NCBI GenBank assembly: GCA_963931925.1
Contig: OZ007581.1
Span: 15,289,322 to 15,353,321 of the forward strand
DNA from: Onchidella celtica
Lineage: Eukaryota; Mollusca; Gastropoda; Systellommatophora; Onchidiidae
Direction: 5' to 3'
Length of the DNA stretch: 64,000 nt
Positions 14,521-56,846 of the stretch are shown here, one piece after another; position 1 is the stretch's first letter, and every line of letters starts with the position of its first letter. Position numbers and translations under genes: made by a program. The notes under the pieces are model-generated. The model did not search any database, had not been told where the DNA came from, and saw nothing but the letters and a program-made list of their open reading frames with translations.

Positions 14521-15827
14521 CCGCAACCCATCTTATCCTCTCTGAAAGAGGACGTCATCTACAGCTAATCGACGCTGTTTAGGCCCTTCGCTCTCTGATG
14601 AAATTGGAAAACACAGAGGACGCCACATCACGACTAATAATAATTATTGTTGGCCTGAAAGATTTCTAAGACAGTGAAACGGAGCGCTGGAGATCCCGTG
14701 TCCATGTACTAGATCCCTACTATGTAGTATCGGTTACCATCAACTACCAGTAATTTCCTGCTATTGAAGTAAAATAGTTGTAAAAGTAATAATATTCTTG
14801 CACTTCTAGCATACAATGATAGCTCCAGGTAAATTTGTGGAAGTTTGATCTTCAAAATGTCCCGTTAATTGGGTTCATATTTGCCCGAACACATCGGATC
14901 TTGACGCTCTCACTAAACCCGATAGTTGTTACAGCAATATGACGTTAGCCCTCACCAGCCAGGGCTTAACCAATTAGTGTCAAGACCACTGCTGAATGGC
15001 AACCGATGTTTCCTTAACTAGGCTAAACGGCACACCGTGTATATTATAAAGGAAATTATCGCAGCCTCCAACAGCCTTGCCTACAGTATACACACTTAAT
15101 GTGGCTTCACAACGACTTCATACAATACCGTCTCCTTGCTGAGATCTGCACGTGCAGTCACCGTCTCAGATTTAAGTAGTGTGACATATAAAATTTGTTG
15201 TTCGAATTGCACCAAGTATCAGCTCATTTTTTTAAAAATGTCTTTTTTTCTGTATCCGAACAGATTTCATTATTTTGTGTAATTACTGAAAAGTGCTTCG
15301 CAAAAGAGAAGCTGTTTACAATCAAATATGTATGATTCTGTCATTACAACAGTTGGTCAGGTCATCAGAAGATTTTAGATTTCTGTTCATGTTATTACTT
15401 ATCTTTCTAAAATCTTTGAAATTTTGGACTTCGAATGAGATGTTAACACTTTCGTTGATGGTCGACTAGTCTTTTCATGAATTTTACCTTCCTGCACTGG
15501 AGACAAGTCTACGGAACCTCACGGGTATTACGTTACACAAAGGTTGCTGGTTTTCTGGATTTCACAAACAAATTCTGATAAATTGCAAGTCAAAACATTA
15601 ATTTAAAAGTTGATTTGTTTTAAAGGCAGGGAGTCACAACATGAAGAACTAAGAAGAAGGAAAAACGCAGAGAAAAATCATTCTATATTGGAGTTTTGTG
15701 ATTGTGACAACTACAAACTGTATCCTAGTGTTTATAGATTTGGACGGTTATTATTTATGTTATAAATTTTCGTTCTTAACCAGTTCATAAAGAGTTCAAG
15801 AGGATAATCATCCATCAAGCTACAGAC

Positions 15828-15837
15828 ATGGCACAAG
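15828..15837 (+). CDS. CARD-C1q gene, exon 1 (start codon)
   Basis: ATG GCA CAA G followed directly by the donor GTAAGT. The start has G at -3 and G at +4, a favourable Kozak context. The exon ends in phase 1, and its final G pairs with GT from exon 2 to make glycine. It is chosen as the start because exon 2 is open upstream yet has an AG acceptor at exactly the phase needed. Confidence 0.5.
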
Positions 15838-17331
15838 GTAAGTTAAATTATGGCTATCAGTAACTTCCAATTATGTGAATAATTTCTTTGTTTAATTAAA
15901 TAAATGTGTTTTCACTTCAACTAAAATGACATGACCCATCGTCATATTGTCATCAACTATTTTCTTTTTATTGTGAAGCCAATCCGAAATAAACGAAATG
16001 TGGCTACTTCTGTCTGTGAGTTTCACACTAAATTCCTACTTACAAACCACAGACATTAAAACCGATGTTCTGGAGTTTAGTCAAACGTGACATTTGTTTA
16101 CACAATCCAGACCATCATTGACAATAATTATTCTAAGACGTGGGAAAAATTCACGAAAACCTTGTTACGTTCAATTACCTGTTTTTAGTGGAACATAGTA
16201 ACGGACTGTGTCATGTATTGATCGAATTGAGTCAACCACATTATCATGTTTCTGATGGCAAGAAAATGACTGACCTACCACTGAACCAACATAATAACAC
16301 CGTGGATCAGAGAAATTGGATGTGTTGGCGATGACTGTAGCCCATGATGCTGTTTTGATGGAGGACAACTTTAAAATGTTTAATGTTTCTGGTAAACGTA
16401 TTCCCAAATCAGTGTCATTTGCATAATAGGTTGTATAAATCAGGCTGTCTCTTGGCACGGCAAAAAAAAAATGCATGGTATGGAATGCTTGAAAGAAATT
16501 GGTATGGAACTGGTATATTCACAAGAACAGGGGTTGAAGGGTTTTAGCAAATGTGAAAAATAGTTTACAAAAGAGCATGGTGCAAAGACAATAACTACAA
16601 TAATTAACTTGGGAGTTACATTGAAAAATTCAGTTTGCATAGGACATTTAGTTCATCGAAGGAAAAAGTGGTGTCCCGTTGATTCATAGAATATCTCCTA
16701 GACCTTCTAATGAGTTAACAGTTCAAATATATGTGTATTTTGTGGATTATTCCTCAATGACACTAGATTTTATGCTTTTACACAACCATTATGGTTTGCA
16801 ATCATGCTTCGTTTGTTTATGCCAAATTTCGGTAGATCCATTCCGTAGTTATGTTAGTCTTTTCATTACTAAGGGATTTTTTCTTTATCATTTTTTTTAA
16901 AACTCAATGTGGGCCCAGACTGCAAGCCCACCGAAAGCGCTAGAAATAAACATTATTACTAAGGATTGTGCTGTATCAACACTTGCCATTTAGAAGATCT
17001 TGAGTAGCTGGCTCGAAACTGGCTTGGCTTCGAAGAAAACTGGAATCCTTTCCGGTGCTCATGTTTCTTAAAAATAGGGATTCCCTGCCATTAACAGAAC
17101 AATTATTTAAAGAAGCACAAAGATATAGAACAACCAATGTTAAGTCGAAAAATGTTGTAAAGGTCGTGTTTTATATTCTAAATTCTAAGTCAGAAAAACC
17201 ATCTGAAATCTCAATAATGTCGATATATGTTAGGGGGGAGTTGGGATTCAAAACTTGACCATCATCAGCTTATGAGTATAGATTCGTGGAAGACTTATGT
17301 CAGTATCGTCTGCATTGTTTTCTTGGTCAAG

Positions 17332-17498
17332 GTTACCAACAAGAGCAACTGCCACTAGCGTCCAATCCCAGATTTTGGCCTGTGGATCCCCAGGTCATAT
17401 CAGAAATTGAGCAGATATTTCAGAACTATATTGTGCCAGGCAATGTGCTGACAGTGTTCCAGAAGTATTCTCCCAGTGTGCTAGTGGAGAAAGATAAG
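17332..17498 (+). CDS. CARD-C1q gene, exon 2 (CARD helices 1-3)
   Basis: The acceptor is TTTTCTTGGTCAAG and the donor GATAAG|GTAAGG. It encodes residues 4-59, ending VLTVFQKYSPSVLVEKDK. The pattern of a hydrophobic helix, a short loop with SPSVL, then an E-K-D helix start fits the first half of a CARD of the RIG-I/MDA5 kind. It ends in phase 0, matching exon 3. A short reading through the donor into the intron stays open, but the domain continues only after splicing. Confidence 0.65.
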
Positions 17499-17633
17499 GT
17501 AAGGGAACTGAAGAAAATTTTTAGATACAACTCTAAATTGCCTGAGATAGAGCCGTGGAGTTAAATATTTCTAATGTCACTCCATTAGTCACATTAGTAA
17601 TTCAATGAATCCAAACTATATTTGTAGTGTGTC

Positions 17634-18099
17634 GATTTGAGGTCTTTATTTTAGGAGGTTCGCTGCCCTTGGCATTTACACCTCACTTTACTTGTTTTTT
17701 ATTATTTCTTGTTCTTGCCGGGGGGGGGGGGGGATGATATGGATAAATTTTAATCTATTAATTTCAATTTTGCCCGGGCAGCGGCCTTTCGGCCTGCTCT
17801 TTACGATTTCCAACTGCCAAGGTATCTTTAACGTGCGCAACGTGCACACGGGCACTCCGAATTTTTTCGTCCTTATCCGAGAAGACTAGGTACTCGATCC
17901 TACCCCCCAATAGGACCAGGGACTTGAAAATATGAGAAAAATCCAATTTCCAAGAACTACTCGATCCTACCCCCCAATAGGACCAGGGACTTGAAAATAT
18001 GAGAAAAATCCACTTTCCAACATGCCTGCACTGCCCGGGTTTAGAACCCGGGACCCTTGGCATGAGAGGCGAGCACCTTGCCTCTAGACCACCTTGTCC
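17634..18099 (-). mobile_element. Full-length SINE copy, antisense in intron 2
   Basis: Inverse copy of the SINE at 9565-10038, flanked by the 13-bp target duplication TTTGTAGTGTGTC at 17621-17633 and 18100-18112. Head, duplicated body block, conserved core and TAAAATAAAGACC tail are all present. A run of G replaces the C-rich tract of the first copy. Confidence 0.9.
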
Positions 18100-18991
18100 T
18101 TTGTAGTGTGTCATATAGTACATGGACATTTATAAGAATTCGAGCATGTAGAACTTCAAATAGTATACCAGTATCAAAATAAAAAGACAAATTCATGGAT
18201 GGAATGATTTGTATCTAGTAGCTTTATTTGTGTATAATAAACTGTGTCACGAAATAGATTTTCGACTGCAATAACAACTCACTTCAAGGTATCGGTGCAA
18301 TTTGGAAACTGGAGTTATATGTTTTGAAGTATCATCCAACATGTCAACAATAAACGAAATTGTGCCCTTACTAAGATTAACTTATTAACTGATTTATTAA
18401 TTGGGTCTTAAGATAATATTGTACTAGCCTCCCTTGATTTTGTCAAAAGTGTGAATAATAACTCAGTAGCGAAGAGTATTTGAACTTTTCACAGACGGCA
18501 CCATGAACGAAGATAATTTTCTTGTTAAAGATCAGCTGAGAGCTAAAATGCTGAATCCATTCTAAAATAAATCAAACATATATTAACTGGGAATACCCTA
18601 GAGTTTGCTGATGTATGTCGGAAACTTATTCAATGTGAAGACAGGTATAATGTTTCTACTTGATGTAATTTTTCTTTGATATCCTGGATTTTTTTGCTTG
18701 GTTGACATCAGGCCTGGATTTAGGTGAAGAGAGACCATAGGCCATTGTCGCTGTGAGGTCCCTCCTCATCCTCCAACTCCCCGCTCGGAGGACGATGGAC
18801 GTTTTAAAAATAATTTGAGTAACCCCAATGACGATGATGGGTGTAAAATTACGCACTTCGCAGTTCCTTCTCGAAAGGACATAAACTGCTATTTTTCATT
18901 GCCATAGTAACTCAATAAATGTTAAAATACTGGGTTTTATGTAACTTTTCCTTTAACTGAACTTTGTACGTATTTTCTGGAAGACGCAGGA

Positions 18992-19240
18992 TGTTTCATC
19001 ATCATCATCATCATTGCCTTTCTCACCCTGGATCAGGGTATAGGCCACCAACAAACACTTTCCATCCCTCTCTATCATGGGCCAGTCTCTTTACATTATT
19101 CCAAGTCTTTCCGCTTCGTTGCACATCATTTTCTCTGGCTCTTCTCCACGTTCCGCGCGGCCTTCCTCTTGATCTCTTGCCCTGGGGATTCCAATCCAAT
19201 ACCTTCTTCGTGATGCTGTTTCCTGGCCTCCTGAGAGTAG
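18992..19240 (-). mobile_element. 3' end of a non-LTR retrotransposon with an (ATG)n tail
   Basis: On the minus strand the frame reads SRGRPRGTWRRA, then SGKTWNNVKRLAHDREGW and GLYPDPG before a stop. This basic linker and HDREGW motif is the typical C-terminal tail after the reverse transcriptase of invertebrate LINEs. A GATGATGATG tail lies at the 3' end near 18997-19013. The copy is strongly 5' truncated and lies in intron 2 of the CARD-C1q model. Confidence 0.7.
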
Positions 19241-19703
19241 AACAATAAAAATGTTTGTTTACTGTTATTTAAAAAAAACAACAACACAAAAACACAAAAC
19301 GCGAATCTCAAAATGCAGTCTAAGAAGTGCTAATCATATGACAACAAATGTATCTGTGTAACACTTAGATCCTACCGTATGATGTCATTATACAGTTGGT
19401 TTTAAAATAGATGAGTAAGAAATAAAGAAACTGCCGCGGTGTGGGCAGTGCATGGGATATTCCTGTGGTGCAAACTTTATGAGGGGTGAGCCATCAGTCT
19501 GGCGCCTACTCCAGGCTTGGTATGTTCCATCCCATAACTTGGAGAGGTAAGAAAATTACACACTATTTTGTTCAGACATTGCAGTGCATGGTCACATCTT
19601 ATGTAAGGAGAAGCTATGCAGGCCACAAAATATTGTGTAGATTGGCCTGGGGTGGCAAGGCCCGCTTAGATTTTGAGGCCAGAGGCTTCAGGCTACCTAG
19701 CCT

Positions 19704-20131
19704 ATAGGCCCATTGCGAATGACGTCACAGAGTGTTTTTGTTTTGTACTTCCGAAACCTAAAATGGCGGGTGGATCAGCCGACGAATGTAACTTCGAGAT
19801 AATGTCTAAGCGGTTAAAATGCCTACTGGTTGCGTTGCAGTTGGCTGTTATGACAGGGGTGGAAAGGATGGATCCGAGCTGGTCAGATTCCCGACCATCC
19901 GTGTAAACAAGGAAGAGGAAGTGAAAGAATTGACCGAACGTCTCCCATGTGCGTGGACGCACGTGTCATTGTTTACCGTTGTGAATTTTTCTTAGCTCGC
20001 CGCCGATTGGTTCGCGAGGCCTGAAGTGCTCGCAGCGCAAATCAGCTAACGAATCAAAATCAATGCTACCATCGCCATTGTGAGGCGTCGGTCTTGACAG
20101 CTTAAATGGCCGATATCCGCAATGGGCCTAT
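19704..20131 (+). mobile_element. TIR element carrying a THAP-type coding fragment
   Basis: The ends ATAGGCCCATTGCG (19704) and CGCAATGGGCCTAT (to 20131) are perfect inverted repeats of 14 bases. A TGACGTCA palindrome sits at 19720-19727 just inside the left end, followed by AAAATGGCGG. A THAP-like frame lies at 19819-19995. The flanks show no clear target duplication. Intronic in the CARD-C1q model. Confidence 0.7.
19819..19995 (+). CDS. THAP zinc-finger N-terminal fragment of a DNA transposon
   Basis: A 58-residue frame starting MPTGCVAVGCYDRGGKDG, with VRFP about 15 residues later and a Trp near residue 48. The C-x3-C, then F-P, then W spacing fits the first half of a THAP C2CH finger. 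The distal Cys-x2-His is absent before the TAG. It lies inside the TIR element 19704-20131, so it is transposon-derived and probably inactive. Confidence 0.6.
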   Translation: MPTGCVAVGCYDRGGKDGSELVRFPTIRVNKEEEVKELTERLPCAWTHVSLFTVVNFS

Positions 20132-20339
20132 TGGTAAATCCGGCACTGACTGACAGAGATTTGCTTTTCAGACATGTCACGAAAATATATTTTTCCAAAT
20201 GGTGTGATAAAAATTCGGACTATTGTGTAAAATTAGCCCAATATCCTTTTCACCAGCAAGCTGACCTTATATTACACCCCTGCCCTTATTGTTTAATATT
20301 ACTGAAGTACTTTAAATTTTTGTTCTGTGCAATATCCAG

Positions 20340-20505
20340 GAAAAAATTAAACAAGATACTCTGAATCATGGTAACAGAGAAGGAGCCACTACTTTACTGG
20401 ATCGGCTGAAAAGATACGAAGATTGGTTCGACTGTCTAACAAAAACTTTGTGCGATCAAGCCGTTAAACAAGAACATGTAGCAAAGATGATAGAACAAGC
20501 TGCAG
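20340..20505 (+). CDS. CARD-C1q gene, exon 3 (CARD helices 3-6)
   Basis: The acceptor is AATATCCAG and the donor CTGCAG|GTGAGT. The exon encodes EKIKQDTLNHGNREGATTLL and then DRLKRYEDWFDCLTKTL. The G-x-x-x-x-A-x-x-LL-x-x-L-x-R motif followed by a W-F-x-x-L helix is the classic second half of a CARD. Joined to exon 2 in phase 0, the two exons complete one CARD with no gap. This is the best evidence that the flanking small exons are real. The exon ends in phase 1. Confidence 0.75.
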
Positions 20506-21299
20506 GTGAGTATCATTTCTCCATGTTTCACCAACACATCAATCAAATGACACAGGGAAATAAATGTTTACAGTGGTGTACCTAAGTATTGGCTGAGCTG
20601 TGGACTTTTCTCTAGAAGAAATGTAAAAGAGATGATAAAATTATGGGTATGATTTATCATAGCCGATCGAAGACTCGAAATAACTCATACTGGATGTGAA
20701 ATGTTCACCTACACAGGCATGGAAATGGAAGAAGTAAGCAACAGCGGGAACTGCAAATAAAATGTGTTTATTAATAACTTGGAAAATTTATGCACGGGAT
20801 AAATAATTATTTGTATTGATCCTAAGCATAAATTATAATTGATGTTGAAAGTCAAACTTAACCTGGGCACTGTCTCATACTCATTTGTCACCCAATGCAA
20901 TATCAACGCTGTATATGGATCTTTACAAAGTTCCACATGATCAGAAAGTTGAGAAGCAAATGGAGTAAATATTGACCACATAGTCTTTAACTTACAAGGC
21001 ACATTGACCAAGAATTGACTGTTCTGAACCAGACGATAAATACATATTATTTTATTATTATGGTTTCGGGATTTTTAGAAATCATAGCTTGTCAGCATGA
21101 TGGGTAAAGTTCATATTTACACAGTTCCCTCAATTAGTCATAAATTCGGTTATAGGCAGCCTTTTAGTATCTAAACCCAGTTCAAAGATTGATTCGCAAA
21201 AGCTGAGATAAATTATGATAATATAAATGATTTAACCAAAAAAAAAAAGGCAATTCACAAGATATTTTACCAATATTGATAAAAGAGAACAAAAACATG

Positions 21300-22288
21300 T
21301 GTCACAAGTGGAGTGAGCGCGATTAAAAGGATTGCGGTAAAGTGGGTATAGAGTTGTAAGATTAACTCACTGATAGTTGAAGCAGACAGTTAACTGGAAA
21401 GCGTGCAATGACATGAGCACAGTTTTGGAGTTATTGAGGTAACGTCTGTGTAATGAAAAGTCACTGCAAGCTGAGAAGTTCAAGAGAACAGACGTGTGAG
21501 AGGCAGTCGGGAGTTTTGATTTATTCCAGTGAAGACTGGTGCCGGGTACAGGCTGAACGTTGTGACGGGGTCGGGCTGTGATGCCACCGTTGGGACAGTG
21601 AGGGCATAGCTGGGGCTGGGGGTGTACGCCAGTATCTGGGTGCCGACACCAAGGGTAGCTGTGGCGTAAGGCCGACAGGCAGCACAGTATCCGTGGCAGC
21701 CTGATTCGAGGAATCGAGGCTGGCCATATTTAGAAGATAAGTGACTTTACGAAAGCCTTCGTTGGTCGTGTGGTTGTTCCATGGGAACTTTGTCAGTAGA
21801 TGTGTTTGGAATACGAGGTGATGTATATAAAGTGATAAGGTGAAATATATTGACGCCTATTAAGTGCTGAACATGAAGTAATCACCTAAGTAACGAGTGG
21901 TTGAATATGAGATCACTTTGACTTAAAGGGTCATCGGGACGAACGTCTGAGATATATGTATTACGGTATTGTACTACAATGTAGTGCAGATATTGATGTG
22001 AGGTTGAGTTAAGGGCAGTGAGATATTGTACTACAAGGTAGTGCAGACATTGATGTTAGGCTGAGGCCAACTTTCATATTTTAAAGAAGTGACTATCCTG
22101 TAGTGGAACTGGAAGTGGAATGAATGCTTGAGGGGAACGAGTACTATGTTGTACTTATTTGATTGTATTTATTAATGTTGTAATAAATGTGTGAGCCTGT
22201 TTGACTGTTTTGTTAATTGTTATACTTGTTTGTTTGTGATTGTCTAACTGTCACATTAAGGACATCTCCCAATCTGGGATTTGTTACA
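21300..22288 (+). mobile_element. Solo LTR with 5-bp target duplication
   Basis: The 989-bp sequence begins TGTCACAAG and ends TTTGTTACA (TG...CA) and is bordered by ACATG at 21295-21299 and 22289-22293. A TATATAAA-like tract near 21824 and an AATAAA near 22184 support plus orientation. No internal domain remains. The minus-strand frame at 21521-21727 is within the LTR and not a gene. It is unrelated by eye to the other LTRs in the window. Confidence 0.7.
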
Positions 22289-22929
22289 ACATGAATGGAT
22301 TTGCAGGAAGAGACTGAATTTTCATAAATGAATGAAAATATGCTTAGTGAGTCCTGTCAATCAAATATCTTTTGTTGTGAAAATAAGTCAGGAACAGAAA
22401 CACAGACTAGGGGAAACGGCATAGCTCTACACCAGTGGATGGAACGTTTTTGCGAGGAAATTATGGCGTCTTTATTGGTAACTCACACTTTAGATATCCA
22501 TAAAGGAGACTTCTCTCTACAGTCATTATCCCATCTTACAGTGGTCCCTAGTCAAGTATAACATCGTTCACTTTAAACAGTGTAGCTTACATCTGATTGA
22601 AAGGTACTTGAATTCTACTGTAGACAATAATCATATTATGCGATTGTTATCAAACAGTTTGATCTTATCATAAGTTTTAAAACACATGAGTATAACTAGT
22701 GCATCATTGTGGCAATACTCAATTCTGTCATCCAAGTTTTGGCTTAGTTTATCAAACATTTACAGATGTACGGTAATTTTGATTCAACACTGTTTCAAGG
22801 GGAAAAAAACGTATCGGTGCAATGAGGCAGTAATAAATCACATTTATTTGACTCTAGTAGAGTCTGATGATGATGGTGGTGACTGTTCACATGAAGTGAC
22901 ATGATTTGACAAATCTTTTGAACATTAGT

Positions 22930-22998
22930 GTTGTGTGTGTGTGTGTGTGTGCGTGTGCGTGTGCGTGTGCCTGCGCTTGCGCGTGCGCGTGTGCGCGG

Positions 22999-23072
<74 letters not shown>
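22930..23072. repeat. Alternating purine-pyrimidine (TG)n/(CG)n tract
   Basis: About 140 bases of almost perfect alternation of TG with CG blocks, including a (CGTG)n core. Such sequence is prone to form Z-DNA. Intronic in the CARD-C1q model; open frames are artefacts. Confidence 0.9.
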
Positions 23073-23077
<5 letters not shown>

Positions 23078-23339
23078 TTGACTAGACACGGTCTTGTCGA
23101 TGCATTCATGAAGCAGATTGTTGTTTTATATCATTTTATTTCGCTTGGAGTAAGATTTCTAAAACGGTTTCTTTGTCATGACATAGAGCTGTTCATTGAT
23201 TTCCAATGAAATCGAACAATTAGAGACATAGCCAAAGAAAGTCAGGAGATGAAATTAATCCTTGACGAAGGTGAACACAGCCTTAGAGTTACCTGCCATG
23301 TAAACTTTGTCTCTCCCATGTGATCTGTTTGTGTTTCAG

Positions 23340-23374
23340 GAGTTCAAACAAGAGAAGATGAAGATGAGCATGAG
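23340..23374 (+). CDS. CARD-C1q gene, exon 4 (acidic linker)
   Basis: A 35-base exon bounded by GTGTTTCAG and GAG|GTAAGT, phase 1 in and phase 0 out. It encodes a short acidic segment, VQTREDEDEHE, between the CARD and the coiled coil. Microexons are hard to prove by eye; strong splice consensus at both ends and correct phase support it. Confidence 0.5.
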
Positions 23375-23604
23375 GTAAGTTAAGCTCTCTCTTGAGTTGT
23401 GACGACATCACTGGGTGCAATGTAATTTCAGTAAGAAATCAGTGGATCATGAGCTATTGAATACACACACAATGTTGCAAGACGTTAGTTTTTTTTGTTG
23501 GCTTTCGTCAGAAATCTGAAAGTCCCAGAGTAACACGTGGGCAACTTGACATTAGTGCATTTGAGAAATTAATCAGTCATGTAGACATGGTCAACTGGTC
23601 TCCA

Positions 23605-24062
23605 GAACAGCACAGACATGTGTTCACTGGTCTTCACACTAACACAGACATTTATCCACTGGTCTTCACACCAACGCAGACATGTATCCACTGGTCTTCA
23701 CACCAACACAGACATGTGTCCACTGGTCTTCACACCAACACAGACATGTGTCCACTGGTCTTCACAACAACACAGAAATGTGTCTACTGGTCTTCACACC
23801 AACACAGACATGTGTCCACTGGTCTTCACACCAACACAGACATGTGTCCACTGGTCTTCACACCAACACAGACATGTGTCCACTGGTCTTCACAACAACA
23901 CAGAAATGTGTCCACTGGTCTTCACACCAACACAGACATGTGTCCACTGGTCTTCACACCAACACAGACATGTGTCCACTGGTCTTCACACCAACACAGA
24001 CATGTGTCCACTGGTCTTCACACCAACACAGACATGTATCCATTGGCCCTCACACCAACACA
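23605..24062. repeat. 32-bp minisatellite, about 14 copies
   Basis: The unit contains CACTGGTCTTCACACCAACA and GACATGTGTC and repeats every 32 bases. Because 32 is not a multiple of 3, and the unit lacks stops, all three plus frames stay open for over 500 bases. These long frames are therefore not genes. It ends about 95 bases before exon 5. Confidence 0.95.
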
Positions 24063-24156
24063 GATGTATGTCCTCTGGTCCTCACACCGACGCCGATATA
24101 TATGTGTCCATTTTACATTATGTTACCTAATACCAAATGGAATCCAATTTCTTCAG

Positions 24157-24241
24157 ATAACACCAAGAAAAGTACTGGAGTTGCAAAGGAAGATAAGATC
24201 TCTTGAGATGCAACTGGAGGAGAAAGAAATAGAAAATAAAG
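24157..24241 (+). CDS. CARD-C1q gene, exon 5 (coiled coil)
   Basis: The acceptor is TTTCTTCAG and the donor AAATAAAG|GTGAGC. It encodes 28 residues beginning ITPRKVLELQRK and including LEMQLEEKEIE, with leucine/isoleucine heptad spacing typical of a coiled coil. Phase 0 in, phase 1 out. A 32-bp minisatellite ends about 95 bases upstream, and its open frame runs into this exon, but the acceptor marks the likely coding start. Coiled-coil stalks usually drive trimerisation of C1q heads. Confidence 0.6.
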
Positions 24242-25376
24242 GTGAGCACAATATTCTCATATGAATCACTAGCATTAGCTTGGCAATTATTCCAATTGTT
24301 TGTATTTGAATTGTTGTTTGCAGTAGCTTTGATACCAGTCTAAACAGATATTTAAACTGTGTTTTGTGATGGCGAATCTTGATTTATACTTGTTTTTTTT
24401 TTTTTATTGATTTATTTATCAGTCTTGGTGTCCTTGCTAAACCTGCCCATCTGACATGGTTTTCCATTTCAGTCTGTACCATAATAAAAGTGAAAACACT
24501 ATGATATCTGGCCATAAGATTGTATTGTTCATCATCTGTAACATGCTCAGACTTTGTAAAACTGAACCGAACCACAAGTTTTCAGCCACACAGACTTTTC
24601 CCAGCTCTCAGACACGAAGCCGGATGGTCTACAGTGTGAAAACGACGATTCTGTTCTCTTCATGCAGAAAAAGCAATGTCTTGGGACCAACTGGTGTCAA
24701 CTAAGAATGAGAGCAGATTGGGAAATAAAAACAAGAAGTTGAACAAAAGATAAAAGAAACAACAACAACAACAACAACAAGAAAACAACAACTCAGGAAA
24801 TGTCTAATAAGAAAGTGGATGACTGGAAAAACATGTCGTCAGATAATGACAGTAACTGAAAGTGGTCAGTCTTGTGAAAAGCTAAAGAAAACAAAAAAAA
24901 GTGATGCACATGTTCCCTTGACCAATCCCTCCCAGACCTCCATCCCAGCACCCCACACCCCCCCCCTCCTATCCGCTTATCGTTCCCTGAGAAACGATGA
25001 TTTTGCAGTGCTTTAAAGGTCGCCAAAACTACGGTTTTCGTACTCCGTTTGATGTCTATTAATAAATAATTAATGAATAAAAAATTATCTACTCTGAATG
25101 CGAAAAAACACGAGCACGAAGCGTGAATTGTGCACAATACGAGCTGGAAGTGACGCGTTATTGTTACGGTTCGTGTCCGCCATATTGGTATTCTGCTATC
25201 ACGCAAAGCATTACCAGTGCTCACCAATGCCCAGACGCGCCACGGGTTGAATGGTATTGTTAGAAGGAGCTGGCGGCCATCAAAGGACGGGCGGCCATCA
25301 AAGGACGGGCCGCGACTTATTATCTGAGTCATCGTGTTTGTAAACAGAGCAGCGTGTAGGTCTTTGATTATCAAAA
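24242..25376. other. Intronic sequence with small duplications
   Basis: No coding exon recognised. It includes (CAA)n at about 24760-24779, a poly-C tract near 24960, and a 20-base direct duplication (GGCGGCCATCAAAGGACGG) near 25272-25310. Confidence 0.5.
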
Positions 25377-25404
25377 GATTTATCTGTCTGTCTGTCTGCC
25401 TGTC

Positions 25405-25462
<58 letters not shown>

Positions 25463-26019
25463 GTCTGTCCGTCTGTCTGTCTGTCTGTCCGTCTGTTTGT
25501 CTGTCTGTCTGTCTGTCTAGCTATCTATCTATCTATTCTATATATCTAACATATCTATCTATTCTATCTATCTATCTTATCTATCTCTCTCTTCTATCAC
25601 TCTCTCTCTCTTCTATATCTCTCTCTCTCTCTCTCTATCTGTTTCTCTCTCTATCTGTTTCTCTCTCTATCTGTTTCTCTCTCTATCTGTTTCTCTCTCT
25701 ATCTGTTTCTCTCTCTATCTGTTTCTCTCTCTATCTGTTTCTCTATCTCTCTGCCTCTCTCGTCTCTCTCCGTCTCTCTGTGTGTGTGTCTCCTTCTCTC
25801 TCTCTTTCTGTCTCTCTCTCTGTCTCTCTCTGTCTCTCTCTTTCTGTGTCTCTCTCTTTATATGTCTCTCTCTATCTGTCTCTCTCTCTGTCTGTCTCTC
25901 CCTATCTGTCTCTCTCTATCTGTCTTTCTATCTGTCTCTCTATCTATCCATCTATCTATCTATCTGTCTCTCTATCTGTCTATCTCTCACTCTCTCTATC
26001 CATCTATCTGTCTATCTAG
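25377..26019. repeat. (CTAT)n/(CTGT)n and (CTCT)n simple-sequence array
   Basis: The CTAT and CTGT tetranucleotides grade into CT-rich sequence with a repeated TATCTGTTTCTCTCTC unit at about 25636-25742, then back to CTAT. The serine/leucine-rich frames are artefacts. Intronic in the CARD-C1q model. 26020-26793 has a 27-base tandem duplication at about 26527-26580 and no gene I can support. Confidence 0.95.
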
Positions 26020-26793
26020 TACAGGTAGCTTGTTTGTCCCAGTGAGCTTTGCAACCACACTTTATTTTCAATAGCAGTCGAGGCTTGATATTAGTACAAG
26101 TTCAATGTTGTCAGTTTGAGGCCACACGATAGGGCCTGTCTTTCACTAGTCTGTTGTCTGGCCCATCTCCACGTTACCCGTACCCTAGCATGTCTCTTTC
26201 TCTCTCTCTGTCTTAACTACTATGGTATACTGCTGGTTTTTATAGTGTTTTTGTTATTTTTTTAGCCCAATTCAGTGATAAGTGTATGAGCCAATGAAGC
26301 TGTTGGTGTTAACTTCCCATCACTCGTTGTCATCCCTCTAGGCTTACCCCACCCACTACCGCCGCGTCATATAAAAAAATAAATAAAATATGCATTAACA
26401 CCATTTGCTTTACATTGTAGTTGTGGTGAGTTGTGTCGGTTGAATCAGTTTTTTAAATTTTAATCGAAGACTTTTATTCAATTTTATGTCATAGTGTATG
26501 GAAATGGTATGTGAGTGACTATAAAAAAATTAAAGTTACAAAATCAATCTCAATCAAATTAAAGTTACAAAATCAATCACAATCACCGCTATTTTTCAAC
26601 CCGTTGGCTAGGCTGGGTTAGGCCAGCATCGAGCGCTCAGCCCAGTCCGCGATGGCGAGAGGGGGTTCCAGTGCGGACCATTCCGGCTCGCTTCGAGAAG
26701 CAGGGAAAGAGAGAGCTGGCGAAGCCACGCGTGGAATCTAGTCCAGTAGTGTATATCTATGGTGCTCACAAATCTTTGAATTATGTTTTCTAG

Positions 26794-26925
26794 CAAAGCA
26801 TCAGACAACGTTAGCACAAATGATCAGTCAGAGGATGAATTATTTGAGTCTTGCAGTGGGGATTTGTCTGATTCTGACGATGATACTCCACTTTTACCCT
26901 CGATCAATGCTGCAAGTCTGTCGAG
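26794..26925 (+). CDS. Candidate optional exon of the CARD-C1q gene, or first exon of another gene
   Basis: The exon lies between TATGTTTTCTAG and CGAG|GTAAGT and is open in two frames. In the frame set by exon 5 (phase 1 in, phase 1 out) it encodes a hydrophobic run YLSLAVGICLILTMILHFY, a plausible transmembrane helix. In another frame, starting at an ATG at 26783, it encodes an acidic serine-rich N terminus (SEDELFESCSGDLSDSDDD), which looks like genuine coding sequence. That frame ends in phase 2 and cannot join exon 7. The hydrophobic frame may simply be the shifted shadow of acidic codons. The two readings cannot be separated by eye. Confidence 0.35.
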
Positions 26926-27724
26926 GTAAGTTGTGAACTACAGTACAATGGAGCATGTAAGCGAAATTACTTGACACATATCTGAAAGTTAATAGAATAA
27001 AATGTTGTGTCACTGTCTCTAACACAGAATCTTCAGACTGATCTTCATTAAACATGAAAGAGATAATGTGCACTGTGTTGGTGGATACGTTCATTTTGAG
27101 GGCAAACAGGGGTATTAAGGAAAGTTGTCTTTCTTTCTTTTTTTTTTATTGACCCTTAAATCAACTGACTCATCGAGTTTGGTCTTTTCTGACAGACAAG
27201 TGATGGATAGATGAATGAATGAACAGATGGGCAGAAGGTGTATTGAGCAAAGTAAGGGATGGGAAAGTTAACAGATCGATATTAGTATGGATTTGAGGAT
27301 TTGTCAAGTGTGGTAGTATGAATAGATGTGTAGACATAGATGAATGAATTGAGACAGAAGAGGAGGTATAGAGCTGGATAAATAGGACATTGGAAATGGT
27401 GAGATGAAAGGCAGAAAAAATAAAGAGTAAAAACGTTTGTGTTGACTAAGTACTAAATATGTGCATACATTGTATCACTTGACCATGAAAAAAATATACT
27501 ATTTGATAGATTACTGGACCCAGCGAAATGGGGGATCTGTTCCATCAACTACAACTTCCAATTGCCTCCTGTAAATCATGACTGTAAAGTCTGAGCATGA
27601 AATTTGGACCATGATAACGAAATTAAACAGTTTGTGACTGAGATGACTGTGAATGAAATTGAATGACGTGATAATGCGACTTAAACTTGGCTACAACAAA
27701 AGCTTTGTTCGTGTATTCCTTCAG

Positions 27725-27820
27725 AGCAAGCTGAGCAACACAAGAAAATCTTGGGGCATATGAAACACTGTGAAGAACGTGATTTCCAGGCTGCCTTGAA
27801 AGATGTCAAGGGATGGAAAG
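27725..27820 (+). CDS. CARD-C1q gene, exon 7 (helical stalk)
   Basis: The acceptor is GTATTCCTTCAG and the donor GGAAAG|GTTAGT; phase 1 in and out, 96 bases. It encodes EQAEQHKKILGHMKHCEE followed by RDFQAALKDVKGWK, a charged helix continuing the coiled coil. It joins exon 5 or the optional exon 26794-26925 equally well, and the C1q exon at 32827 downstream. Confidence 0.6.
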
Positions 27821-27918
27821 GTTAGTATGGAAGTTTGAGTAAAAAATATAACGGAAGGAGAAACTATATTTGCAGTCTAGGAGATAATCAACAGTTTGCT
27901 CTCTTTTTTTTTTTTCAG

Positions 27919-28506
27919 ATTAATTATTTTACCAAAAGAACGATGTTTGTCGAGCGTTGAGTCAGTTTGTTTTATTCACCCCGGTGCATTATTTTTTTTC
28001 AGATTAATTATTTTACCAAAAGAACGATGTTAGTCGAGCGTTGAGTCAGTTTGTTTTATTCGCCCCGGTGCATTATTTTTTTTCAGATTAATTATTTTAC
28101 CAAAAGAACGATGTTAGTCGAGCGTTGAGTCAGTTTGTTTTATTCACCCCGGTGCATTATTTTTTTTCAGATTAATTATTTTACCAAAAGAACGATGTTT
28201 GTCGAGCGTTGAGTCAGTTTGTTTTATTCACCCCGGTGCATTATTTTTTTTCAGATTAATTATTTTACCAAAAGAACGATGTTTGTCGAGCGTTGAGTCA
28301 GTTTGTTTTATTCACCCCGGTACATTATTTTTTTTCAGATTAATTATTTTACCAAAAGAACGATGTTTGTCGAGCGTTGAGTCAGTTTGTTTTATTCACC
28401 CCGGTGCATTATTTTTTTTCAGATTAATTATTTTACCAAAAGAACGATGTTTGTCGAGCGTTGAGTCAGTTTGTTTTATTCACCCCGGTGCATTATTTTT
28501 TTTCAG
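27919..28506 (+). repeat. 84-bp tandem repeat, 7 units, each ending in a 3' splice-site-like T8CAG
   Basis: Units start at 27919, 28003, 28087, 28171, 28255, 28339 and 28423, exactly 84 bases apart, with only a handful of point differences. Each begins ATTAATTATTTTACC and ends in a run of T followed by CAG. The unit is 28 codons and open in one frame, giving a 106-residue repeat frame from 28199. No start context or donor site supports coding. It lies in the last intron of the CARD-C1q model. Confidence 0.95.
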
Positions 28507-29620
28507 CGTAATCCGTTGATGTTAGTTGTTTTTTTTAGTTTTATTATTTGTCTGTCTAATGTATACTGAACTTTCTCTGCATATATTTCAAAGTTTTACA
28601 GAAAAGTGGCAATGACATGATTAAAATCATAGAAAAATACTCTTGAAACTAAAATCCCCCGTTGAACCGCTGAGCATTTTGTGAACTTTCGGTTCAACCC
28701 ATAATAAAATACATTGATGATACTCAAATTTGCACACGTTTTACATAGAAAATCATCACAATCCCAGGATTGCTGGGTACTCAACATAAACACAAACACT
28801 AAATTGCTGTCAACCGCCAATCAGAAAGATAGATAACCATTTTGTAGCGCATAACAGCTTATTTACACATGTAAAAAAACGCAATAATTGAGAGGCCACA
28901 TGCAAAATTTCAGAAATATGGATCAAGAATTACATAATTTATTCCCTAAGGACACTTTTTCTCATGAAAGGAACTCCAGTTATGTAACTTGCATGTTACA
29001 AAAATGATACTGAATGAAACTAAATGAGCGAAAGTTGATGGAACTCTAAGAACGTGTCCTTGTCTAAATGAATAGTAATCTTCATTTCAGATGACATTAT
29101 TGTCAAAAAGATTATGAAAATGTGAGTTGAAATAGTGGCAAATTAGAAATTAAAATGTGTATTAGGCAAAGTTCCAGTATGTGAACAAAGAACATATTTA
29201 TTGTGCAGGTGAAAGAAACCAAACAACTTCTCGGATGTTAAATTTTTGAGTCGGTAAAAGAATAGGAAAACAAATTAAAAAAAACAACAAAAAAAAAGTC
29301 TCCTCCTAGCTCCACTAGGGGGCGACAAACGAGATCTCATGATCTCGAACCAGTGCGTTGGCTTCCTTGCTAGGGTGAAGACGTGTTTTCATTCCCGTTT
29401 TGCTTCTTTGGATTATTGTATTTCATCTGCTTGTGAATTATCATTGTGCTATCATCATTGTGCTCTTCTCTGCCGGTATGTGTTTTCCTAAAAACCTAAC
29501 GGGTTCTACAGTCAAGCACTTTCCTTGCTGCAGTTTGGATGCTTTGTCACAGATACCACAGCCAGGCGAACTTTCTTATTGCTCCCACCAGCCGCTCTTA
29601 GTTTCATCAGTCTCCAAGAC
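28507..29620. other. Intronic sequence, no exon recognised
   Basis: AT-rich, with only short frames. A degenerate tRNA-like segment may lie at 29300-29385 on the minus strand (GGTTCGAGATC), too weak to call. Confidence 0.4.
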
Positions 29621-29629
29621 ACATATGAT

Positions 29630-30830
29630 GGAAGCAAAAAGTGCTCATGTTGCAGGGGACATTTTGTCCACCATGGAATTTCCCCACGAAACTGAGAGCA
29701 AAAAAAAAAAAAAAAGACAAAAAAAGAGGCCGGCAAAGAAAGAAAAGTCGGGGCAAAGACGGACAAGATGAAAAAGGCGGATGATGCCAAACTGACCACA
29801 ACCGTCTGTAGAATTTAGGTCAAAAGCTGGACCTTCACATATCTCTAATTCCTCAGGTCCGGACTTTGATAAATTGGCGTCATTGATGCTCGAATTGCAA
29901 ACGAAACAGTTCGAGCACATGCGCAGTCTCGTGACTGCGCAACATTTCCGCCCAGAGGCATCACTGGCTCAGCCAGTTATCGCCCGCAGGACCATCACAT
30001 GAAAACCGACCCCTCGTCGGTGATGACGGGGGAGGCGGTGGCTCCAACACCCTCGCATCCTTAAGTGCCATTATTGAAGACAATGACAATAAGGAGACGG
30101 ATAGTGACGTTCCTGACAGCGACACTAGACTTCGAAAACCTGGAAACAATGTTTCGGGACACAGAGGACAGTGGAGAACCGATCGTGGACAACATTGCAA
30201 AAATTGTCAATCAGGCAATGCACGCCACAAGAAGTATTGAAAAACATAAGCGAGAAATGCCCCCCCCCCTTCCCCCCCCGATAATATCGAGCACCTTAGG
30301 GTTGCCAGGGTGAAGATGGCTTCAGCCAGTTGTCGTAAGAGAGATTTCGAATTCTAGAGAATTCAGGCAACTGCGGTGACGTGACAGCTTTGGATTATGA
30401 AGCCAAGTACGTCAAATCCAAAAATGAAAACAACCCGGATGGGAAGTATTAAGTTTGACATTCTGTCACACAGTTTGTGCCTTTCTTTCACTGTATTTGG
30501 GGACTTATCTCAAAAGAGAAAAGACAGCCTAAAACCCTCACTGAGCACCCAGTACTCCGATTTGTGGAAACCCTTAAAAGACTGAGGAACAGGTGAGCAG
30601 TGAATATTTGTTTCGAGACAGTGTATCGGACAAAGTGAAACATATCACTGGCACGATTAAGATAACACACCAAGTGGCTCGGTCTGCTCCAAAAAACTTC
30701 CAAGGACGCATTCCTTTTGCGCGACGGAATGCGAATGGCCCCATGGCCGGGCGTCGAGAGACAACAAACCAGATCAGTGCACCAGAACGGGGGAGTGGAT
30801 CACACAGGGGAGGCAAGTAGAGAGTAAAGC
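29630..30830 (+). pseudogene. Degenerate retroelement gag-like region
   Basis: Pieces in different plus frames read as a Cys-rich segment (KKCSCCRGHFVHH), a poly-lysine stretch, then FDKLASLMLELQTKQFEHM, and near 30700 a basic glycine-rich end. This order resembles Gag-like ORFs of DIRS-type elements in invertebrates, but stops and frame changes break it. The identification is tentative; it could be another retroelement. No reverse transcriptase was seen nearby. Confidence 0.3.
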
Positions 30831-31533
30831 CAGCAACCCACTCAACCCCCCCACCTAGACAGTTCCATAGGGCACGTCCCTATGCATGCTTAGACCAGCA
30901 CACAGAATCAGATGTAAGTGCCGAACCTGTCATGACATTAAGATTGTATTCCCTGGATAATTTCTCTTCGCAGGGAAAACTAAAGCATATTATTCAGGAA
31001 TAGAGAAATAATCACAAATGGCCCGTAAATTTTACAACTATTTAGTGGCGTGATTCCCTCTTTTGTTAATCAGTACGGAAGGTCTACTTATTTTTTTGCT
31101 GTTGTTGGTTCTTCGTCCTCCAAAGTTCTGTTTCTTTTTATTTTAATCATGAATACTTGACTGAGTGTGAGTGTTTTTTGTATAGTCATGTAAAAAACAA
31201 AAAGTTTACATTTCGTGCTTGTATACTTAAGAGATGTGAAAATTTCACTTTGTATAGAAAGATCTAAGTCAGAAACAGTTGGACTGATATGTTGATGAAA
31301 CATGAAAGATATGGGCAGTGGCTTAATGGATGAGCTCACTGTCAGATCTCACAGAGAATGTACTCAGATGATGCTATCTTCTTCTTTATTGTTTAGATAA
31401 TTCTAATGGCATATTGAATTAGGCCCGTCGGGTGGTATTCAGTTGTAGGTGGTAAATGTGGATTTATTGATGATATATTTAAGTATCTTGAGATCACACA
31501 CTATAGGCCGAGGTATATATTGATGTCATAGAG

Positions 31534-31733
31534 NNNNNNNNNNNNNNNNNNNNNNNNNNNNNNNNNNNNNNNNNNNNNNNNNNNNNNNNNNNNNNNNNNN
31601 NNNNNNNNNNNNNNNNNNNNNNNNNNNNNNNNNNNNNNNNNNNNNNNNNNNNNNNNNNNNNNNNNNNNNNNNNNNNNNNNNNNNNNNNNNNNNNNNNNNN
31701 NNNNNNNNNNNNNNNNNNNNNNNNNNNNNNNNN
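31534..31733. other. Assembly gap of 200 N
   Basis: Exactly 200 N, probably a placeholder of unknown true length. It lies in the last intron of the CARD-C1q model next to a long GA-rich repeat, a likely cause of the assembly break. Exons could be missing here. Confidence 1.
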
Positions 31734-32576
31734 GATAGATCTATAGATAGAGAGAGAGGGGGACGAGGCAGACAGAGAGGGAGAGAGACAGACAGAGGGG
31801 GAGAGACAGACAGACAGAGACGGGCAAACATAGATGGATCAATAGAAAGAGAAATATAGTTATATATAGAGATATAGTGGAAGCAAGAGAGGGAGAGAGA
31901 GACAAACAGATGGGCAAATAAAGAGAGACGGACACAGAGAGAGAGAGAGATATAGACAGAGAGAGATAGATCGAGAACAGGGCGAGAGAGACAGAGAAAG
32001 AGAGAGAGAAAAAACAACAGACAGGCAGAGAGAGGGACAGACCAACAGAAAGACAGGCACGGAGAGACCGAGAAAGAGAGAGTGGGAGGGAGAACGAGAT
32101 GCTAAGAGAGAGAGAGAGAGAGAGGGAGAAAGAGGGAGAGATAGGGAGAGAGAGGGAGAGACAGAGACATAGCTGACAGAGATACAGAGACAGTGAGAGG
32201 GGGAAAGAGAGAGAAACAGACAGGCAGAGATAGAGAGAGAGAGAGAGAGAGAGGGCCAAAAAAGACAGACACGGGGAGGCGGAGAGTGAGAGAGGAAAGA
32301 GAGAGAGGGTAAAACAAAGAGCGACAGAGAGAAAAAGAAAGAGAGAGGGAGAGTTAGACAGACAGAGAGATGTTGGGAGAGAGAGACTGACAGACAGAAA
32401 CAGAGAGAGAGAGAGAGAGTTAGGCGAGATCCTGAGACAGGGAGAGAGACAGATAGACAGAGTGAGAGAGAGGGTGCGAGACAGAGACAGAGAAACCGGG
32501 ACAGACAGAGAGAGAGAGAGAGAGATGAGATGATAAAGTAGTAAAGAGAGATAACTAAGTGATAGAGATAAATAGA
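31734..32576. repeat. Polypurine GAGA/GACA low-complexity tract
   Basis: About 840 bases of nearly pure purine plus-strand sequence built from GAGA, GACA and GAAA blocks. The 321- and 261-residue minus-strand frames made of serine and leucine are artefacts. A second (GA)n run lies at 32711-32750. Confidence 0.95.
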
Positions 32577-32710
32577 TAGTGAGAGTCCAGGTGAGATGGG
32601 GAGCACAATGGAGAATAGTGAGAGATAACACCGTTGAGATGTCACGGGGTGGAGGGAAGGGGGGGAGGGGGGGTGGCAATGAAATAAAGCTAAATGGAAA
32701 AGCCATTAGG

Positions 32711-32753
<43 letters not shown>

Positions 32754-32826
32754 CATGTAGAAAGAGTCATGACTGAGGTCACCATGGCCCAGCTATAAAA
32801 ACTATGTATTTGTTGCATATTTACAG

Positions 32827-33302
32827 ACAGACAACAGACAGAGTCCAGACAACCAGTAACATTCAAAGCTGAGTTGCCCAAGGGCGAGTCAATCTCCATC
32901 ACTGAAGGCAGAATTCTCACGTGTTTGACAAATGTGATAATGGACAGTGGTCACAACTATGATGCGTCTACTGGTGTGTTCACTGTACCTGTCAGTGGCA
33001 CGTACAAGGTGACCTTGAGACACACCCAGGAGAGGAAAGATAGAGAAAGTTTTATACAGTTATGGGTGGTGCGTGAGAGGGGGGAGGTTGGTGTGGAACA
33101 GGGGAAGACAAGTAGGGTGAATGGGTCAGCGACGTGGGGCAGCAAGCATAGTCGTGATAGGATCAGTCAAGTACAGGCTGTCAATTTGAGAGAGGTAGAG
33201 ATGGAGGTGGGAGACAGGCTGTGGGTGCAGGTGGACATGGTAGCGCATGATGAGAAACTGGTGTCACCCACAAGCGTGTCTTATGTGTTGTTGAATGATT
33301 AA
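32827..33302 (+). CDS. CARD-C1q gene, terminal exon (C1q domain)
   Basis: The acceptor is TGCATATTTACAG; the frame is open from 32827 to the TAA at 33300-33302. The protein starts RQQTESRQPVTFKAEL and carries the C1q jelly-roll hallmarks: an FKA-type first strand, N-x-YD-x-STGVF, TVPVSGTYKVTL, and a C-terminal L-x-x-GD-x-LWVQV motif followed by a final strand (VSYVLL). Length, about 145 residues, is normal for a C1q head. The usual F of the last strand is replaced by YVLL. The TTG at 32874 is not a real start, because the domain begins upstream of it. C1q-domain proteins in molluscs are lectin-like immune factors, usually secreted; the CARD upstream is therefore unusual. Confidence 0.85.
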
Positions 33303-43542: not shown

Positions 43543-43543
43543 A

Positions 43544-45478: not shown

Positions 45479-45489
45479 GGTAATTCATG

Positions 45490-45727
45490 GTGATGATGTA
45501 TGTGGTGCTGGGTTGTTATATCAGTGCAATCATCACATACTTCAACATCGGGAAGTTGGACTGTCAAACTCTCCCCCCCCCCCCCCTGGATATTTAAAGT
45601 GCAGACCAAAGCAAGCAGAAGAGCACATGGTGGAGCTGGGAACACGGAAAAAGTGATTCATCTGAGCACAGGCATTCCTATGTGAGCACGCAAGGGCTGA
45701 CTGGCTATCACCGTTTTCACAGGTGTA
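45490..45727 (-). CDS. Cys-rich membrane protein B: ectodomain
   Basis: Reading from 45727 the minus strand gives YTCENGDSQSALAC, NACAQMNHFFRVPS, MCSSACFGLHFKYPGG and, after a run of C on the plus strand at 45574-45586, LPDVEVCDDCTD. The cysteine pattern matches A. The homopolymer changes the reading frame of the two halves, so the gene is either mutated there or the tract is a sequencing artefact. The coordinates follow homology, not a start codon. A GA microsatellite at 45728-45776 directly abuts it. Confidence 0.5.
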
Positions 45728-48641: not shown

Positions 48642-48651
48642 TACTTGGCTG

Positions 48652-56831: not shown

Positions 56832-56846
56832 GACTGGAATAGCTTT

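Follow-up and report, generated by a model that had tools for sequence, protein, structure and literature searches.

C1q proteins are mostly regarded as secreted, and a signal peptide is usual in them; CARDs act in cytosolic pathways, those of RIG-I/MDA5, NLRs and caspases. The Pfam family CARD_2 holds the CARDs of RIG-I, MDA5 and MAVS, and in MAVS the CARD is combined with a C-terminal membrane anchor. TRIM5-type and NLR sensors have a signalling N terminus, an oligomerising middle and a fast-evolving recognition C terminus. We know of no CARD in Caprin-2, a protein with a C-terminal C1q-related domain. Of the immune-type gene families of the Pacific oyster, the C1q proteins form the largest (PMC4346834).

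We analyzed the window, a whole stretch of 64,000 nucleotides from Onchidella celtica OZ007581.1, which contains a predicted gene joining a CARD to a C1q head. The first-pass annotation knew of no described CARD-C1q family, and our literature searches likewise found none. Bivalve C1q-like type II proteins have a coiled coil ahead of C1q, where the window protein has a putative coil, and theirs is a large tandem family (PMC6835236). They are classed as secreted proteins that have a signal peptide; the window protein, by contrast, bears a CARD and shows no recognisable signal peptide. The Mercenaria cytoplasmic globular-head C1q proteins (cghC1q) are filed as cytoplasmic, like the placement proposed here (PMC8905726); unlike the window protein they are C1q alone, and the words "death" and "CARD" are absent from the main text of that paper. 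RIG-I-like receptors (RLRs) share a CARD-type N terminus, and in lophotrochozoans their N-terminal domains have been exchanged through exon changes (PMC8998645); the window protein differs in lacking a helicase and a RIG-I C-terminal domain, its putative sensor part being the C1q head. The C1q-related domain of Caprin-2 is trimeric and cytosolic (PMC4440618), but Caprin-2 is a Wnt-pathway regulator. Molluscan C1q is joined to another N-terminal domain in SUEL-C1q of oysters and in QREPs (Ig-C1q) of gastropods (PMC6835236); there the partners are binding domains, whereas here the partner is a signalling domain. Protein database searches gave 0 of 1192 candidates with the joined frame, 0 of 14 with exon 7 and 1 of 608 (a shark C1QTNF3-like protein) with a 10-row C1q alignment, in a database seemingly poor in animal proteins that says little on other species.

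Structure of the predicted CARD-C1q gene

The features of the locus are as follows.

15761..15766, + strand: TATA-like box, 67 bases 5' of the start codon, by sequence match alone
15828..15837, + strand: exon 1, with start codon (MAQ|G) and phase-1 donor GTAAGT; the ATG has G at -3 and +4, and the donor is in the top 0.05% of GT sites
17332..17498, + strand: exon 2, encoding the CARD's first half, with the match starting at 17391; phases 1 to 0, 167 nt
20340..20505, + strand: exon 3, encoding the CARD's second half, with the match ending at 20459; 166 nt, CARD_2 34.6 bits alone
23340..23374, + strand: exon 4, acidic linker, same borders in the paralogue
24157..24241, + strand: exon 5, putative coil with its heptads spanning residues 132-150, same borders in the paralogue
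27725..27820, + strand: exon 6, coil continued, 32 residues in the window gene
31534..31733, no strand: 200-base N gap within intron 6, separating the CARD side from the C1q exon
32827..33302, + strand: exon 7, C1q head and stop, PF00386 26.8 bits
within 32904..33245, + strand: 25 scattered hypervariable codons of the C1q head, with pairwise amino-acid diversity of at least 0.6 in a ten-gene clade
33973..33978, + strand: first AATAAA polyadenylation-like signal past the stop, by sequence match alone

Spliced, the seven exons give 1035 nt in a single frame (344 amino acids and a stop), with intron phases of 1, 0, 1, 0, 1 and 1. Of 3819 GT sites scored in the window, the six donors rank in the top 0.05 to 0.7%, whereas the acceptors score less well (top 1 to 11% among 4212 scored AG sites). 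This scoring used hand-written splice-site weights. An in-frame stop at 15777 lies upstream of the ATG, which is one of two ATG-plus-donor candidates within 8 kb 5' of exon 2. No counterpart of exon 1 was found in the 4 kb upstream stretch examined in a gapless paralogue on C15, so support for the 10-base coding start comes from the window alone. Scanning the window for Rfam families and tRNAs gave no matches. An ATTAAA lies at 33899, between the stop and the first AATAAA.

In the joined frame, CARD_2 (PF16739) was matched with an E value of 4.1e-12 and 46.4 bits, against a cut-off of 28.2. Exon 3 alone scored as listed above and exon 2 alone gave no match, so joining the exons gains about 12 bits, in keeping with the claim that the CARD is split over the two. 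The C1q match (PF00386) was 24.1 bits in the joined frame, barely exceeding the cut-off of 23.7, and higher for exon 7 alone. A profile of 10 family heads searched against solved structures found C1q-like protein 2 as its best single-domain chain (E 3.2e-5); the E value of 4.1e-9 for a single-chain adiponectin trimer was boosted by the three copies in that chain. The window CARD aligned with MDA5 (chain 7dni residues 141-185, which we take to be its second CARD) at GN..G...LL.R....E.WF, with an E value of 0.04 that ranked below a designed helical protein (0.035). A single-sequence structure model of the exon 7 head had a pLDDT of 36.7 and was of no use. The coil is short and its heptad score of 4.95 modest, being reached by 60 of 1000 shuffles and barely exceeding the 4.5 of the CARD part. 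We concluded that the CARD is of CARD_2 type and linked to the C1q head by this putative coil, with both domains in one frame as the first-pass annotation had proposed.

By hydropathy, the 344 residues contained no hydrophobic N terminus or membrane segment, and the best 19-residue mean, 0.94, was located inside the CARD. Pfam searches of the same residues at E values up to 1 gave no match to a DExD/H helicase, a C-terminal RNA-binding domain, NACHT or NB-ARC. The predicted protein thus lacks the hallmarks of RIG-I-like receptors (helicase and C-terminal domain), MAVS (membrane anchor) and NOD-like receptors (NACHT or NB-ARC).

Gapless relatives and genomic arrangement

Because the N gap divides the CARD side of the gene from its C1q exon, two neighbouring genes or contigs could have been misjoined across its 200 bases. 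Relatives without a gap in the same genome remove this doubt. The relative at C15 5.47-5.50 Mb has exons 2 to 7 with the same order, borders and phases in a single open frame, carries CARD_2 (44.5 bits) and C1q (26.1 bits) by Pfam, and is collinear with the window on either side of the gap. Exon 2 is 75% identical between the window gene and this paralogue (C15 5.48 Mb), with the same length (167 nt) and borders; exon 4 differs by an in-frame 6-base indel and exon 5 is 79% identical, both with borders unchanged. A second gapless stretch carries, in this order, coil exon 5, two copies of exon 6 and the C1q exon. Two relatives have exon 6 in a 53-residue form, present twice in each, which resembles a longer coil. 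The exon 3 form (166 nt, AG and GTGAG borders) was found in all nine members inspected, the window gene included, and 24 of 26 relatives inspected share the position of the phase-1 acceptor of the C1q exon.

The genome has 29 CARD_2 exons and 29 long C1q exons resembling exon 7. Within 50 kb there are seven CARD_2/C1q pairs, all with C1q downstream on the same strand, and none in the other three arrangements, which also speaks against a misjoin. We rejected the misjoin, a barely credible explanation that we regard as nearly refuted. In that arrangement and distance, 22 of the 29 CARD_2 exons have no long C1q match and 22 of the 29 long C1q matches have no CARD_2 match; at 130 kb, ten pairs have C1q downstream on the same strand and two have it upstream. 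No convincing CARD exon was found within about 28 kb upstream of five C1q relatives. CARD_2 matches begin at profile position 35-39, the border of window exon 3, in 24 of 29 cases. Of the long C1q matches, 27 are open; a stop interrupts one, and another is split between two frames. We concluded that the predicted gene belongs to a multigene family and, given the good splice sites, the 344-residue frame and borders repeated in relatives, that the seven-exon split gene with genuine splicing claimed earlier is confirmed at the level of sequence.

A locus with this structure might also yield two products, a CARD-coil protein and a C1q protein secreted from its own promoter and signal-peptide exon. 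If the exon 6 donor is read through, a stop follows after a single codon, which would fit a separate CARD-coil product, and 262 C1q genes of the eastern oyster (55%) are filed as secreted coil-plus-C1q (PMC6835236). Three head cysteines are conserved in 25, 23 and 24 of 25 genes, which could point to disulfides and an extracellular place; two are absent from the window gene. However, no in-frame start codon precedes the head in exon 7, which needs a phase-1 exon upstream and, both in the window and in two gapless relatives, follows the coil exons. A signal-peptide exon for C1q, the refuting evidence named in the first-pass annotation, was not found in window intron 6, by a weak scan that also gave no upstream-exon candidate at any of six other C1q loci, which are not known to be secreted. 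Strict-filter signal-peptide candidates in introns of two of three relatives scanned were judged to be chance. We consider two products improbable.

Sequence change in the CARD and the head

We compared 27 of the 29 long C1q matches, fetched or the window's own (C15_17.312 and C15_50.760 were left out). Rates of dN/dS were computed for 25 of the 27, omitting C15_6.652 (frame broken) and C15_17.232, by Nei-Gojobori counting over non-independent pairs, with bootstrap over codons and no likelihood test; dS is possibly lowered by gene conversion. C15_17.201 was additionally left out of the column comparison.

For CARD exon 3, pooled pN/pS across nine genes was 0.417 (0.33-0.51), and none of the 11 of 36 pairs with measurable dS exceeded 1. 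In a ten-gene C1q clade that includes the window gene (support 87/86, in a tree with only 3 of 22 inner branches well supported), pooled pN/pS was 1.71 (1.26-2.42), and all 45 pairs were above 1. The value was 0.88-0.91 in two other C1q clades and 0.82 in a control C1q array; only one clade thus shows an excess over 1. Between the window gene and its gapless paralogue, dN/dS was 0.29 for CARD exons 2 and 3, 1.40 for C1q and 1.84 for the coil, the last resting on a dS of only 0.064. Intron divergence between the two was 0.197; the C1q dN of 0.274 is above this yardstick as well, and the CARD, with a dN of 0.157, is only mildly constrained by it.

Relaxed constraint in a decaying family, rather than selection, might also produce amino-acid change in the head. 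The two damaged long C1q matches and the two clades near 0.9 are what such decay would give. The open frames of the other 27 and the conserved CARD exon 3 are not, and variable residues alternate with fixed ones along strand-like stretches of the head in the ten-gene clade. Two other groups agreed with the window clade in column diversity: the C18 clade (Spearman 0.50, p 3e-10, 142 columns) and a three-gene C15 17 Mb set (Spearman 0.42, p 3e-7, 136 columns). For the 38 columns with the greatest variability in the C18 clade, pN/pS in the window clade was 2.65, against 1.19 for the remaining columns. Decay is thus very improbable, and we concluded from these counts that the head diversifies in the window's clade while the CARD stays conserved.

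A putative intracellular sensor

We favor, as fairly probable, a soluble protein lacking any recognisable signal peptide, made of an N-terminal RIG-I/MDA5/MAVS-type CARD, a short coil and a C-terminal C1q head, that would act as a cytosolic trimeric sensor in which the diversifying head clusters the CARDs. The heads and the coil would form a trimer in the cytosol, as the trimeric C1q-related domain of cytosolic Caprin-2 illustrates (PMC4440618). The variable outer face of the head would recognise ligands, microbial or danger ones, that vary from one family member to the next; through multivalent binding trimers would be brought together, and their gathered CARDs would seed a CARD assembly on an adaptor with a CARD, or on a caspase, acting downstream. 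The layout can be likened to that of TRIM5-type and NLR sensors, with no sequence relation, the head here being C1q and the effector CARD_2.

The same Caprin-2 precedent would fit a cytosolic scaffold or modulator whose head merely trimerises and whose CARD would either feed other CARD proteins or compete with them, as do CARD-only regulators; helicase-less CARD-only proteins of RIG-I/MAVS type are known in Aplysia (PMC9334734). A mere trimeriser is expected to be conserved, yet this head diversifies in the window clade at columns that are also variable in the C18 clade, and we regard a scaffold as unlikely.

With its fast-changing head surface, the CARD-coil-C1q family looks like a new kind of intracellular immune sensor. 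If so, RLRs and NLRs would be joined by a third route that leads from recognition to CARD signalling, and animals without adaptive immunity would have a germline-diversified intracellular receptor set; intracellular C1q recognition would be directly testable. More tentatively, and a little short of an even call, the family may form a separate class of cytosolic pattern-recognition receptors, in which a fast-diversifying trimeric C1q head reads intracellular ligands and directly fires a RIG-I/MDA5-type CARD, with units swapped through phase-1 introns. Such introns flank the CARD (exons 2 and 3) and the coil (exons 4 to 6) and precede the head (exon 7), so each unit is exchangeable, and exchange through them may be the origin of the gene and of re-pairing of CARDs and heads. 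Compared with the gapless paralogue, dS varies along the window gene (exon 3, 1.05; C1q, 0.20; coil, 0.06; introns, 0.20). A putative mosaic history would account for the C15 4.91 and 5.49 Mb genes, between which the CARD exon has a dS of 2.84, near saturation, beside C1q exons that are 77% identical.

Gene model of the split CARD-C1q gene

The first-pass annotation had proposed seven exons between positions 15828 and 33302 of the forward strand. Joined, these gave 1035 nt and one frame of 344 residues, as claimed. Two of the borders required a one-base correction and the rest stood as given; all introns have GT/AG ends, with phases 1, 0, 1, 0, 1 and 1, so that borders and phases match as reported. 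Ranked using splice weights, all six donors fell within the best 0.7% of GT sites in the window, and the acceptors were weaker (best 1 to 11% of AG sites). An in-frame stop lies upstream of the start codon, and a TATA-like box is found 67 bases before it. The CARD is indeed split over exons 2 and 3: the joined sequence matched Pfam CARD_2 (PF16739) with 46.4 bits, exon 3 alone with 34.6 bits, and exon 2 alone not at all. The terminal exon matched C1q (PF00386) with 24.1 bits in the joined frame and 26.8 bits when exon 7 was taken alone. By sequence, MDA5 was the best natural match to the CARD among solved chains, although a weak one (E, 0.04) that ranked just below a designed helical protein. 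We regard the predicted CARD-C1q architecture as near certain as a gene model.

Two repeats lie close to the coil exons (exons 4 to 6). A 32-base minisatellite (23583-24088; 15.8 copies), open throughout in all three forward frames, immediately precedes exon 5. Shortly after exon 6 is an 84-base tandem repeat (27908-28506; 7.1 copies), each unit of which has a T-run and CAG resembling a splice acceptor.

A 200-base run of N (31534-31733) in intron 6 separates the CARD-coil exons from the C1q exon, and the pairing therefore spans a scaffold gap. At the level of genomic sequence, relatives in the same genome settle the doubt raised by this gap. A paralogue on C15, the contig that carries the window, contains no N and has exons 2 to 7 in one open frame, with the same borders and phases as the window's gene.

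Exons of the gapless paralogue compared with those of the window's gene
C15 5.47-5.50 Mb, minus strand: exon 2, 75% identical
C15 5.47-5.50 Mb, minus strand: exon 3, 70% identical
C15 5.47-5.50 Mb, minus strand: exon 4, two-codon indel
C15 5.47-5.50 Mb, minus strand: exon 5, 79% identical
C15 5.47-5.50 Mb, minus strand: exon 6, present twice in a longer, 53-residue form
C15 5.47-5.50 Mb, minus strand: exon 7, 60% identical

Pfam gave 44.5 bits for CARD_2 and 26.1 bits for C1q in this paralogue; no counterpart of exon 1 was found in the 4 kb examined upstream. Collinearity between its DNA and the window extends from intron 1 past the stop codon, with blocks flanking the N gap on both sides. In a third gene, near C15 4.93 Mb, an N-free stretch runs from coil exon 5 through two copies of exon 6 to exon 7; a CARD exon 3 lies at 4.911 Mb, 9 kb outside the stretch examined. 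The 53-residue form of exon 6 is thus found twice both here and at 5.48 Mb; the window has one copy, shorter by 63 bases and in frame. On another contig, C18, gapless loci carry exons 2, 3 and 7 inside 7.6 kb (16.2 Mb) and exons 2 and 3, coil-like stretches and exon 7 across 40 kb (6.0 Mb). Exon 3 was 166 nt long with AG and GTGAG borders in all nine members examined, and exon 7 kept its phase-1 acceptor position in 24 of 26 relatives.

Divergence of the CARD and the C1q head

Between the window's gene and the gapless paralogue, dN/dS was 0.29 for the CARD (exons 2 and 3), 1.40 for C1q and 1.84 for the coil, where dS was only 0.064. Since intron divergence (0.197) was close to C1q dS (0.196), the head's amino acid excess holds on the intron yardstick; by the same yardstick the CARD (dN, 0.157) appears only mildly constrained. 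Across nine sequences of CARD exon 3, pooled pN/pS was 0.417 (bootstrap, 0.33 to 0.51), and dN/dS exceeded 1 in none of the 11 of 36 pairs with measurable dS. In the window's clade, represented by ten C1q exons, all 45 pairs exceeded 1 (pooled pN/pS, 1.71 [1.26 to 2.42]). Values above 1 are demonstrated for this clade only, because pN/pS was 0.905 in a four-gene set at C15 17 Mb, 0.875 in a six-gene C18 clade (1.13 to 2.0 in its six closest pairs) and 0.816 in a seven-gene control C1q array.

Column diversity was correlated between the window's clade and the C18 clade (Spearman, 0.50; P = 3e-10; 142 columns). In the window's clade, pN/pS was 2.65 for the 38 columns of highest diversity in C18 (remaining columns, 1.19); in C18, it was 1.21 for the 24 columns of highest diversity in the window's clade (remaining columns, 0.67). 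The two sets had 17 columns in common. Fixed and variable residues alternate in strand-like stretches of the head: in F-I-Q-L-W-V-V, I and L are fixed in 10/10 genes and V in 9/10, and the intervening residues change. Strands were assigned from the C1q family and this alternation, the structure model of the head being too poor for use. Decay of the head was considered and rejected, as the alternation fits instead a folded sheet whose core stays constant while its outer face varies. We concluded that a diversifying C1q head is supported in one clade.

Family size and pairing across the genome

Searching the genome (1.14 Gb, 43 contigs; window at C15:15289322-15353321) gave at least 58 matches to C1q, at least 29 to CARD_2 and at least 90 to exon 7, the first 29 of which were taken as the long exon-7-like set. 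In 24 of the 29 CARD_2 matches listed, the match began at profile position 35 to 39, where the window's exon 3 has its border. At distances of up to 50 kb, a long exon-7-like C1q followed seven CARDs, including the window's, on the same strand, with none upstream and none on the opposite strand; within 130 kb the counts were 10, 2 and 0, respectively. Among the matches listed, no such partner was present within 50 kb for 22 of the 29 CARD_2 hits or for 22 of the 29 long C1q hits, and no convincing CARD exon was seen in the approximately 28 kb upstream of five C1q relatives. Any one of three conditions could explain this: long introns, CARDs that have diverged, or relatives lacking a CARD. A multigene CARD-C1q family is well supported in this genome.

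The CARD, coil and head are each entered via a phase-1 intron, and the CARD and coil are also left via one, a layout that lets them act as exchangeable units without a frame break. Between the CARD exon at C15 4.91 Mb and its counterpart in the 5.49 Mb gene, divergence (dS, 2.84) is far greater than between the C1q exons of the two genes (77% identical), which suggests that CARDs and heads may have been re-paired among family members.

Six CARD_2 matches at C17:2000208-3858914, three starting at the split border, have no long C1q partner. A dense row of many short C1q-like exon 7 matches occupies 18 kb at C15:29595780-29614105 (forward strand), unlike the single-exon heads elsewhere.

Putative cytosolic role and neighboring elements

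Hydropathy revealed no signal peptide or membrane segment in the 344-residue frame, which favours a cytosolic location for the protein, most likely as a sensor. C1q domains trimerise; the family head profile matched solved C1q-type domains, and a putative coil precedes the head in the window's gene. The variable face of the head would bind ligands, clustering of trimers would gather CARDs, and these would seed CARD assembly. Caprin-2 shows that trimeric C1q-related domains are able to function in the cytosol (PMC4440618). The three conserved cysteines of the head would also suit a disulfide-bonded extracellular domain, and the locus could also make a separate secreted product. Two of the three are missing from the window's gene: codons 33120-33122 and 33282-33284 are cysteines in 23/25 and 24/25 family genes, and their joint absence here looks as if they were paired; in one further gene the first is absent and the second retained.

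The claim that no CARD plus C1q family had been described held for the passages and listings searched, none of which named the pairing, including passages on oyster (PMC4346834) and placozoan (PMC6321704). Architectures in those passages include secreted coil-C1q, SUEL-C1q and Ig-C1q (Gerdol 2019; PMC6835236), cytoplasmic single-head C1q in Mercenaria (PMC8905726), CARD-only RIG-I/MAVS-type proteins in Aplysia (PMC9334734) and grafted RLR N termini in lophotrochozoans (PMC8998645). A family member may be hidden in some "other" category of supplementary tables.

Elsewhere in the window, the minus strand at 43018-45790 has two adjoining similar frames that combine a cysteine-rich stretch with one membrane segment and a cytoplasmic tail. 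These may be tandem type I receptor genes; no Pfam match exceeded the cut-off. A dispersed repeat (17634-18102, 9565-10038 and 48647-49031; copies 96% alike), also present near other C1q relatives, is by eye possibly a SINE, although no tRNA was called. An LTR retroelement at 51704-59880 has two 300-base repeats that are 100% identical; by eye, its long minus-strand frame seemingly places an integrase-like stretch before a reverse-transcriptase-like one, an unusual order.
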